Below, in pieces: positions 267-28,016 of a stretch of DNA of 36,197 nt (position 1 is the stretch's first letter; every line of letters begins with the position of its first letter). The translations under genes were made by a program, and so were the position numbers. The notes beneath the pieces were generated by a model. That model did no database searches and was not told the DNA's origin. It saw nothing but the letters and a program-made list of their open reading frames with translations. The stretch covers positions 1 through 36,197 of the forward strand of contig JAFSVK010000088.1 in NCBI GenBank assembly GCA_017444985.1, read 5' to 3'. This DNA comes from Bacillota bacterium. Its GTDB lineage: Bacteria > Bacillota > Clostridia > Lachnospirales > CAG-274.

Positions 267-525
267 TTTTCAAAGCCATAAAGGTAGTGTACGACCAAAA
301 GCTACGATCCGAATATCCGCCCTACATTAAAAAAATTTAATTTTATGTACCAAATACATAAAAAAACCTCCGCCAACCACAAAAATTTATAAAACATCCC
401 CAAAAACATAGACACAAAAAACAACACATAAAGCTTTTATTTATAACAGGAGGTTATTAAAAATAATACCCTGTAGTAATTATTACATAAAAGTTTTAAA
501 ACATTACATAAATGTAAAAAAGTTG

Positions 526-554
526 TTTAAAAATTCTTGCCTTTGTGTTATAAT
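526..554 (+). promoter_or_regulatory. gapA promoter, extended -10
   Basis: The -10 box is TATAAT at 549-554, preceded by TGT at 546-548, so it is an extended -10. A TTTAAA at 526-531 sits 17 bp upstream as a weak -35. Transcription would start near 561, giving a leader of about 70 nt before gapA. Confidence 0.8.
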
Positions 555-578
555 ATGTGCTGTAAAAATTTTAGGCTT

Positions 579-24989: not shown

Positions 24990-26612
24990 TTATTGTACTA
25001 CCGTAAACTCGCCTGTTATTTGAGAAACAGATAATTTTTCGGTTGTAGGTATTGCATAAAGATACTTACCGTTACCTGAATATGTAGTTCCATCGGGGAA
25101 TACAATATTGTTGTACAACTCTGTAATTTCTTCTTCACCATATATAAGGCTGTCTATATCAGCCACATCAGCAGGGGAAAACTCAAAAATAAGGTAACCG
25201 GCATCGTCATCGGTTGTGTATACTGCATTAGGAGCAGGATCTAAACCGGTAAGGGTTTGCTTTGAAATAACTGTTGAAAGTGCAGCGGTGTTTGCCTCTG
25301 TATAAGGTGTTAAAGCAATGTTATAAAAGTTTATACCGTTGCTTGTTGTTAAAGTATAAGTTCCAGCAGATGTAAGATGTCTTTTCACTGCTACCATACC
25401 CTTTCCATTATCACCACCAACACTTCCGCTAACAGCCGTAAGTACTTCGTTATAAGTGCTGTTCGAATCACAAGTGATGGTGATCGTTCTGTCTAATGAA
25501 CTGCTCGAACCTGAAAGGAATTCTAATTCAAGATCCATAGGTGAAGCAATCTTAAATATTAAAACATTGCCACCACCACTTTTTAATCTCTTTGTATAAT
25601 CTGTTCCATTGTATGATTGAGAATTTGTCTCAACAACCCAAGCCTTATTTTTAGCTGTAGTACTTAATTGGAAATGATAATCTCCAACCAAAGCACCTGG
25701 CTCGTATGTACCAACATCAAGGCTGCTTGTATTTAAAGCGTACGCACTTGATATGGTTTCTAATTCATGTTCTACATAAAGGGTAATCGTACAAGAAGCT
25801 GTATCAATTAGGTCATTGGTGTCATCATATAAATCAACGGTTACAGTCGCCGTTTCATTTTCTTGCGCTGAAGATGTTGCTTTTACTGTGCGACTATCAC
25901 CTGTTCCTGACAATTCAATGTTACCTGTAGATGACCATTGCAAATAATATCCATCATCATCAGAAGCGTTCTCTCTTGTTGCAGTTAATTTTATGCCATC
26001 TTCATTCAAAATATTTAATTCTGCGGTTTCATCAAGACCAACAGAAGGTTCCGTAGAAGTCTTGTAAACAGTAATTTCTATCTTTTGAACATATGCGTGT
26101 GAACCTGCTCTACCCAATGTCCATTTTCCTGCGTCACAATTTGTTTTTGTTACCGTGCCACCATTTGAAGCTGATGAATCAATTACATTACTTGAAGAAG
26201 GGGACTCTCCCTTATTTAAAGTTAATTGATCAATACCTTTACCGGAGGGTGCCGTTACAGAAATATCAAATTTTCCTTTAGTGGTAAAAGTAATGGCTGA
26301 AGATGTACTAGAAAACTTATAAGCATTTGATTCAGCTTCACTATCTCCAACACCCGTAATTGTTAAACCATAAATAGTATCACCATTTACAAGATCTGTG
26401 AGATCTAAGGTGTATTTAACTCCATCGGTAGCATTTTCTGCTGTACTTCCCTTGTAAGTATCAGCAATTTCGGGAACAGAATCGCCGGATAAAACAGTCG
26501 TATCTGCTGAATTAAAATTATTTGCCGCAAAAACGCCCATACTACTTAAGACCATCGCACTCGCCATTACACCGGCGGCGACGATAGCCTTTGTTAAAAA
26601 TGATTTCCTCAT
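24990..26612 (-). CDS. Secreted beta-rich protein of unknown function
   Basis: A 540-residue protein with a Sec signal peptide (MRKSFLTKAIVAAGVMASAM, cleavage predicted after VFA at about 29). The mature part is rich in Ser, Thr, Asp, Gly and Asn with alternating strand patterns. Residues about 85-185 (LTITGVGD to AYVQKIEITVYK) resemble small carbohydrate-binding-like modules seen in exported enzymes. The stretch about 195-285 (TAELNILNEDGIKLTATREN to ASCTITLYVEHE) looks like an Ig-like domain. A second module (about 295-435) ends with INFYNIALTPY, echoing the first. There is no anchor, sortase or SLH motif. GGAGG precedes the ATG. It has a strong promoter and long structured leader. Cargo or substrate unknown. 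Confidence 0.85.
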   Translation of the reverse strand: MRKSFLTKAIVAAGVMASAMVLSSMGVFAANNFNSADTTVLSGDSVPEIADTYKGSTAENATDGVKYTLDLTDLVNGDTIYGLTITGVGDSEAESNAYKFSSTSSAITFTTKGKFDISVTAPSGKGIDQLTLNKGESPSSSNVIDSSASNGGTVTKTNCDAGKWTLGRAGSHAYVQKIEITVYKTSTEPSVGLDETAELNILNEDGIKLTATRENASDDDGYYLQWSSTGNIELSGTGDSRTVKATSSAQENETATVTVDLYDDTNDLIDTASCTITLYVEHELETISSAYALNTSSLDVGTYEPGALVGDYHFQLSTTAKNKAWVVETNSQSYNGTDYTKRLKSGGGNVLIFKIASPMDLELEFLSGSSSSLDRTITITCDSNSTYNEVLTAVSGSVGGDNGKGMVAVKRHLTSAGTYTLTTSNGINFYNIALTPYTEANTAALSTVISKQTLTGLDPAPNAVYTTDDDAGYLIFEFSPADVADIDSLIYGEEEITELYNNIVFPDGTTYSGNGKYLYAIPTTEKLSVSQITGEFTVVQ

Positions 26613-26827
26613 TTAGTTTTTCCTCCTTGTAATTTATTCGGAGATGTAGCCTTCTCCGTAAATAAATTTGGGAGACGGGAGTGCCGTCTCCCGGTTTGCA
26701 AATCGTGGATATTTCGAGCTCGGAAAACTCCTTTCCCGTCTGCATACGGGTCGCAAGTAAACTGCAGAATTACTTGCAAGAGCTCGACACACCCTCCCTC
26801 TTAGCCATAGAAGGGCGATAAATATCC
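26613..26827 (-). ncRNA. Structured 5' leader of the secreted protein, cis-regulatory RNA candidate
   Basis: On the minus strand the roughly 215-nt leader folds by eye as follows. Outer stem GGATATTT (26827-26820) with AAATATCC (26714-26707). Inside is a stem CGAGCTC / GAGCTCG (26786-26780 with 26721-26715). That stem encloses hairpin A (GCAAGTAA / TTACTTGC) and hairpin B (CCCGT / ACGGG). Loops A and B hold CTGCAG and TGCAG, which could pair with each other. A 9-bp hairpin GGGAGACGG / CCGTCTCCC (26692-26670) and another hairpin (26668-26631) follow, the last one just before the ribosome-binding site. I could not match it to a named riboswitch class. Confidence 0.6.
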
Positions 26828-26834
26828 TTTATAA

Positions 26835-26863
26835 ATGATAACACTCTTTTACTTTTTTGTCAA
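26835..26863 (-). promoter_or_regulatory. Strong promoter of the secreted-protein operon
   Basis: On the minus strand a consensus -35 TTGACA (26863-26858) and TATCAT (26840-26835) are 17 bp apart. The start near 26828 coincides with the first base of the outer stem of the leader. Confidence 0.85.
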
Positions 26864-27017: not shown

Positions 27018-28016
27018 ATGAAATTAAAAAAATTAGCCTGTTCACTTTTGGCTTTGGGTGCGTTTTGTGTAAATGCACAAGCTTCCGTTATTAAAATAAA
27101 CGATGCTGTACTTGAGCTGGAGGGAGAGGTAAAGACCATAAATGAAAGGACCTATGTGCCCTTTAGAGAAATAGCCGAGGCTATAGGGGCGAGCGTAGGC
27201 TGGGATGAGGCTACAAGGCAGGTAAGTGCCACAAGAGGAAAAAGACAGTTAAGTTTTAAAGCGGGAGATGACTTTTTCACCCTTAACGGGGAAAAGTTGG
27301 ATATAGAAGGCAGTGTGGAAAATATAAAGGGTGTTACCTACGTGCCTTTAAGAAGTTTTTCAGAGAGTTTCGGGGCAGAGGTGGAATGGCAGGCAAATAC
27401 CAAAACCATAAGCATTACAGTAGCAAGACCCGAGGAGGTAGACAGCAGTACCGAAGGGGAGTTTACACTTTCCGATGTGGAAATAAACAGGGCGGATGTG
27501 GAGCTTAAAATAACATTTCCCCGTAAGGACTATGGCTCCGAGTTAAACAGGCTCCTAAGCCAAAACAGCGAAAAAAAGGGTAAGGAGTTTATAAACAGGC
27601 TTGAAGGTGAGGCAAAGGGTGCAAAATTTAAGGTGGATATAAGCGTAAAGGAAAGCTATGAGGACCGTGACATAATATCCTTCGCTCTTAAAGAACAGGT
27701 GTATATGGGAGATAGAAAGGTATCATCCACCCTCTGCCCTCTTACATTTTCCAAAAGAGAAAATACCCTCCTTTCCGAAAGCGAGATTTTCGGACCCGAT
27801 GCGGATCTTAAAAAAGACGGCAAAAATACCCTTATAAACCTTGTAAATAACAGTGATAAATTTTACTTTGACAGCCCCGAGATAATAGATAGCTTGGAGG
27901 AGATACCCTACTACATAAACTCCTACGGCAGGGTAGTATACACTTTGGGAGAGGGTATCATAGCCCCCGAGACCTTAGGCAACATTGAGGCGGAGGGGAA
28001 TGTACAAATTTCCTAA
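27018..28016 (+). CDS. Exported protein with copper amine oxidase N-like and DUF3298-like domains
   Basis: A 332-residue protein with a signal peptide ending AQA at about 22. Residues about 24-135 have two copper-amine-oxidase N-terminal repeats: INERTYVPFREIAEAIGASVGWDE and IKGVTYVPLRSFSESFGAEVEW. In Clostridia these repeats are extracellular binding modules and imply no oxidase activity. The C-terminal half (about 150-325) resembles the DUF4163/DUF3298 region of RsiV/PdaC proteins, with FYFDSPEIIDSLEEIPYYIN and VYTLGEGIIAPETLGNIE at its end. No catalytic NodB domain is present. AGAAGGAA precedes the ATG. It has its own promoter. Likely cell-surface sensing or wall-associated; exact role unknown. 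Confidence 0.8.
   Translation: MKLKKLACSLLALGAFCVNAQASVIKINDAVLELEGEVKTINERTYVPFREIAEAIGASVGWDEATRQVSATRGKRQLSFKAGDDFFTLNGEKLDIEGSVENIKGVTYVPLRSFSESFGAEVEWQANTKTISITVARPEEVDSSTEGEFTLSDVEINRADVELKITFPRKDYGSELNRLLSQNSEKKGKEFINRLEGEAKGAKFKVDISVKESYEDRDIISFALKEQVYMGDRKVSSTLCPLTFSKRENTLLSESEIFGPDADLKKDGKNTLINLVNNSDKFYFDSPEIIDSLEEIPYYINSYGRVVYTLGEGIIAPETLGNIEAEGNVQIS

Follow-up and report, generated by a model that had tools for sequence, protein, structure and literature searches.

On the minus strand of positions 26613-26863 of the window, by which we mean the whole stretch of 36,197 nucleotides that was analysed, lies a leader that belongs, as a divergent member, to a family of structured leaders not described before. 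Sequence comparison gives good support to the view that this is a conserved structured RNA family. About 36 leaders were recovered, comprising type A (n = 7), type B (n = 27) and type C (n = 2); the source genome carries six leaders, and among the genomes sampled all matches fall within one family-level clade of Clostridia. The reading that we favour, with a probability of roughly 0.55, is that the window leader belongs to a new lineage-specific type-A class of cis-acting structured leaders that would control a regulon of secreted proteins, a reading in which we infer both the regulation and a ligand or partner.

The leader is flanked by a divergent gene on the plus strand (27018-28016) and, on the other side, by the minus-strand gene for a 540-aa secreted protein (24990-26612), whose ATG is at 26612. 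Transcription would begin at a sigma-70-type promoter (TTGACA-17-TATCAT with TG before the -10 element, 26835-26863; -35 at 26863-26858, -10 at 26840-26835) that matches the consensus at 11 of 12 positions and has a spacer of 17 nt. Seven nucleotides separate the end of this promoter from P1, an 8-bp closing stem formed by GGATATTT (26820-26827) and AAATATCC (26707-26714). Within P1 lie the P2 hairpin (26790-26817), which is seen in the fold, the helix table and the model alignment alike, and the 7-bp P3 stem, in which CGAGCTC (26780-26786) pairs with GAGCTCG (26715-26721). P3 encloses the P4 hairpin (26751-26779), with a CUGCAG loop (CTGCAG in DNA) that is invariant in the family, and P4b (26735-26750), a lineage-variable hairpin of the form CCCG-UAUGCAGA-CGGG with TATGCAGA in its loop. 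In the window, the place of P5 with its UAGC loop is taken by a short GGA-GUUU-UCC hairpin. Directly after P1 comes the invariant octamer UUUGCAAA (26695-26702), followed by P6 (26670-26692), a GC-rich hairpin that is terminator-like by pattern with a weak U tract, and by P7 (26631-26668), which has a GGCUA loop and ends 2 nt before a Shine-Dalgarno sequence, AAGGAGG (26622-26628), that is unpaired in the predicted fold. All of these features are on the minus strand, the strand having been left unstated in the initial annotation; the promoter, stems, hairpins and ribosome-binding site named there are all present, and P2, missing from that list, completes the core.

The claim of a long structured leader upstream of a secreted protein is borne out by folding and by the signal-peptide gene downstream. 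The leader of about 215 nt has a minimum free energy of -84.8 kcal/mol against -59.3 +/- 4.35 for 200 dinucleotide shuffles (z = -5.86), none of which folded as well. The plus strand of the same stretch is also well folded (z = -4.3), as is expected from inverted repeats; the gene, the promoter, the ribosome-binding site and all relatives identify the minus strand as the sense strand. Several aspects of this arrangement would also suit a constitutive leader that stabilises or insulates its message, in which the 5' stem and closed fold would block decay dependent on the 5' end, leave the ribosome-binding site open and involve no switching. P1 begins no more than about 10 nt from where transcription probably starts, the promoters are close to consensus, AAGGAGG is unpaired in the fold, and surface-type proteins may be produced in bulk. 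The regulatory reading has its main rival in such a purely stabilising leader, which we consider rather unlikely, for reasons that appear with types B and C below.

No known RNA class accounts for the leader. The initial annotation had been unable to match it to a riboswitch, and a cmscan search against Rfam 15 gave the window leader no match to any family at gathering or relaxed thresholds. Leaders at 16 loci, including relatives, were also without a match in Rfam 15, and the c-di-GMP-I and c-di-GMP-II models (RF01051 and RF01786) failed to match the window leader even at E values up to 5. A DNA similarity search among relatives with the window leader returned only promoter and ribosome-binding-site fragments, a phage collection yielded no match, and the type-B core had none among viral contigs. 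The pattern CTGCAGAT..TTTGCAAA, run over the order, was discarded as evidence because almost all of its matches were coding coincidences. Searches of the open-access literature turned up surveys of candidate structured RNAs (for example PMC8040213, PMC2864571 and PMC7247131) and no account of the motif; an unnamed prediction could be present in the supplementary tables of such surveys.

Relatives were reached through the signal peptide of the downstream gene. The 540-aa protein has almost no relatives in public genomes and matched nothing when used as a query against the genome contigs. Its signal peptide, MRKSFLTKAIVAAGVMASAMVLSSMGVFAA, recurs in several more genes of the same genome and in about ten in the sampled relatives, and upstream of these genes are leaders of the same kind, with stems that are quite different in sequence and loops that are the same. 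The presence of several leaders per genome suggests a shared signal. One sibling gene (C1) has a signal peptide of this type but only a short leader.

Type A consists of the window leader (C32), four others of the source genome (C100, C83, C126 and C164), one from a MAG of UBA3680, which is another species of the same genus as the source genome, and one from a MAG of RGIG4310. Their common order is P1 closing P2 and P3, then P4 with the CUGCAG loop, mostly P5, the octamer UUUGCAAA after P1, P6, P7, the ribosome-binding site and the ATG. The CUGCAG loop is invariant in all seven, as is UUUGCAAA, which is also invariant in every type-B leader aligned. P5, with its UAGC loop, occurs in five of the seven and is common rather than universal, and GGCU(A/G) is present in six of the seven P7 loops. 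The window leader has P1, P2, P3, the CUGCAG P4, UUUGCAAA and P6 and lacks the UAGC-loop P5; it is the weakest member of type A.

A covariance model (R1) was trained on five type-A leaders with variable loops trimmed, the window leader and C164 being held out. It matched both held-out leaders, that of the window at 28.3 bits (E = 8.5e-5 per genome; core 26673-26827) and C164 at 37.0 bits (E = 3.1e-7). Across 48 genomes of the family R1 recovered exactly the seven type-A leaders, the next best score anywhere being 18 bits; a wider run, in which fewer candidates were scored in each genome, missed the window leader and gave zero matches in genomes outside the family. In the R1 alignment 89% of cells are paired, 30 of 35 pairs show double changes, and the covariation score is 0.547, compared with 0.271 +/- 0.026 after shuffling and at most 0.18 after sliding, for an alignment that is fitted to the model and in which a weak antisense match accounts for one of eight distinct rows. 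The initial annotation had named lack of covariation in homologous leaders as the result that would count against a conserved structure, and what we found is the opposite, with compensatory changes in all helices from P1 to P7. In a helix table drawn by eye from the seven type-A sequences, a small number, P1 is paired in 54/55 cells (double changes at five of eight positions), P4 in 35/35 (five of five positions), P5 in 25/25 and P6 in 49/49 (four of seven positions), and strand shuffling abolishes the pairing. The held-out R1 matches are the stronger evidence, since the strands in the table were chosen by eye.

A kissing interaction between the CTGCAG loop and the TGCAG of P4b, as first suggested, is feasible in the window copy and is not conserved: in the six type-A relatives the P4b loop differs or P4b is absent. 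The conserved candidate partner for the CUGCAG loop is UUUGCAAA after P1, a proposal based on invariance and not on covariation. Invariant unpaired motifs on variable stems, in nearly every copy, are also what one would expect if the leader were a docking site at which a trans-acting small RNA or RNA-binding protein recognised the loop or UUUGCAAA, the leader itself not sensing a ligand. A candidate partner was not found, and conservation of the architecture extends past the loops, suggesting a role larger than display; we consider this explanation improbable.

Type-B leaders were collected by searching for the palindrome TTATAATTTGCAAATTATAA, the long form of the octamer, and with a second covariance model (R2). 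The 27 leaders come from ten genomes of the same family as type A and have in common a hairpin with a CTGCAG (or GGTGCA) loop, a Shine-Dalgarno-like AAAGGAGG or AAAGGGGG, an H-type pseudoknot and the palindrome. In pseudoknot helix S2 about 95% of cells are paired; one pair is A-U in 11 leaders and G-C in 11, and another is represented by all four Watson-Crick types. S2 is retained, with additional compensatory changes, in six R2 matches that had no part in training the model, and across 391 genomes drawn over the class the sole R2 match was within the same family. The Shine-Dalgarno-like AAAGGAGG/AAAGGGGG immediately precedes the pseudoknot, and no start codon follows it at a suitable spacing (L024, L026, L031, L044, L113 and others). 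Programmed frameshifting at AAAGGAGG was considered and rejected, no reading frame being seen to cross the pseudoknot. The window leader does not belong to type B: it gave no R2 match, does not show the S1/S2 pseudoknot with the UUAUAAUUUGCAAAUUAUAA hairpin, and shares with this type only the octamer and the CUGCAG hairpin. Types A and B are alike in two motifs, their order, the downstream gene family and the clade, and may have descended from one RNA.

At least 16 of the 27 type-B leaders are found directly after a helix-turn-helix (HTH) gene (L026 834-1262, L044 618-1058, L035 1006-1392 and others), whose product of about 125-170 aa resembles the C-terminal part of a serine resolvase without the catalytic domain, with HTH_7 in L035. 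This resolvase-type protein may regulate the leader or the gene downstream of the leader. At L116 and L121 (G017:C13 and G024:C71) a large serine recombinase gene (PF00239, PF07508) converges on the leader, and beyond GGTACGCC the sequence diverges from that of the intact relative L113, which looks like the insertion of an element between the leader and the gene for the secreted protein. L026 also carries a cobalamin riboswitch (RF00174, 45.2 bits; 438-573, minus strand) near a cobalamin-type biosynthesis gene.

The HTH and recombinase neighbours, together with a palindrome that is perfect in the DNA of many copies, invite the explanation that TTTGCAAA (in type B the 20-bp palindrome TTATAATTTGCAAATTATAA) acts at the DNA level, with the resolvase-type HTH protein using it as an operator or for recombination, and both the short HTH_7-like genes in front of at least 16 of 27 leaders and the two leaders broken by a serine recombinase element are consistent with it. 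Against it, helices distant from the palindrome covary, A-U has changed to G-U at two palindrome positions so that the RNA hairpin is kept and the DNA palindrome broken, and type A has the octamer with no adjacent HTH gene in the stretches read. We therefore give a DNA-level site little credence. The covarying pseudoknot kept across genera, like the invariant hexamer loop and the invariant octamer, is also something for which a purely stabilising leader would have no need.

Type C is represented by two leaders, L022 and L030, both from UBA3680, with the same type of promoter as their siblings. Their 3' end consists of CCTCGGTATATTCTGCCGAGG followed by five or six T directly before the ribosome-binding site, by pattern a clear intrinsic terminator. 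The loop side of this terminator, AUUCUGC, is complementary to GCAGAAU of an upstream hairpin, and an attenuation mechanism in type C is therefore likely. A stabilising leader would not need a terminator before the ribosome-binding site.

All 33 leaders that could be evaluated (7 A, 24 B and 2 C) precede an open reading frame with a signal peptide; of the three other type-B leaders, two are severed from their gene by the serine-recombinase element and one is at a contig end. The protein encoded at 24990-26612 has a signal peptide and a C-terminal module as in other leader-bearing genes. The proteins have nearly identical signal peptides and, in the complete-ended ones aligned, a C-terminal module of about 90 aa, with unrelated middles that are Ig-like or of a similar kind. 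Some have Big_2 and CarboxypepD_reg-like domains, and no enzyme domain was recognised in them. In sequence, the window protein and its siblings look like an uncharacterised family of surface or secreted proteins.

Homologous promoters with an A-tract spacer precede most other type-A leaders and the type-C leaders. They consist of TTGACA, a run of 7-11 A and a GTTATAAT-like -10 element (L032 in C83, L038 in C126, L037 in C164, L034, L023 and L022), and in the sibling leaders the spacers, of 12-19 nt, track the length of the A run; in the window promoter the tract is interrupted (A6). In four genomes the pattern occurs almost only at leader-bearing genes. One such promoter without a structured leader (L164; G000:C184 38922-38947, minus strand) is situated before an apparent membrane-protein gene. 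In the vlp genes of Mycoplasma hyorhinis, transcription is switched when a homopolymeric A tract in the promoter becomes longer or shorter (PMC10502178), and by analogy the A-tract promoters are candidate sites of slipped-strand phase variation. A broader proposal would combine these features into a new riboswitch class with two related architectures, A and B, both organised about the CUGCAG loop and UUUGCAAA; such a class, possibly responding to a nutrient or surface signal or to a second messenger, would govern a regulon of secreted surface proteins and be layered on promoters that could vary in phase; we regard this as speculative and on balance doubtful.

In the reading that we prefer, that of a type-A cis-acting leader, transcription would start at the leader's own promoter just before P1, and P1 would close a branched core made up of P2 and of P3 with P4, P4b and P5. 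This core would display the two invariant motifs, the CUGCAG loop and UUUGCAAA, with P6 and P7 separating it from the ribosome-binding site. A single ligand or trans-acting factor shared by every leader in the cell most likely recognises the core, and the 3' hairpins, one of them a putative switch hairpin, would relay this recognition to transcription or translation, with the result that many secreted proteins would come under joint control. Such a common factor or ligand, and joint control, are what three observations point to: helices are conserved around unpaired motifs that do not vary, a genome carries several copies, and the target genes are of a single kind. In the leaders of the window and of C100 the pattern of P6 is that of a terminator, with a weak U tract; no switch is visible in type A, because P6 lacks a strong U tract in most copies and the ribosome-binding site is not obviously sequestered. 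An antiterminator formed by P1 and P6 was rejected, as it beats shuffled sequences in only two of the seven type-A leaders and is absent in the window. Kissing between the loops of P5 (UAGCC) and P7 (GGCUA) is good in three leaders, partial in one and absent in three.

The family gives uncultured gut Clostridia an undescribed structured RNA whose covariation is clear and which includes a new H-type pseudoknot. Since it is tied to a defined set of secreted proteins, it offers an entry point to the control of displayed or secreted proteins, and the motif can be used directly to search for a ligand or partner. Stabilising 5' leaders, of which those of ompA and aprE are examples, have a stem near the 5' end and an unpaired ribosome-binding site. 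The new leaders resemble them in both respects and differ in having invariant loop motifs and a multi-helix core conserved over genera. Like ribosomal-protein and other protein-binding leaders (PMC7247131), they are lineage-restricted, structured and covarying. In contrast to ribosomal-protein leaders, their target genes encode secreted proteins of Ig-like or carbohydrate-binding type and not RNA-binding proteins, which makes simple autoregulation unlikely. Unlike c-di-GMP-I and c-di-GMP-II riboswitches, the new leaders have no Rfam 15 match and most copies have no obvious expression platform. The closest systems in function are nevertheless the c-di-GMP riboswitches of Clostridioides difficile, which precede surface-protein genes (PMC6200980, PMC6366702): in both cases structured leaders occur in several copies per genome before genes for surface or secreted proteins, and the covarying helices, with a pseudoknot in type B, are those of riboswitch-type leaders.
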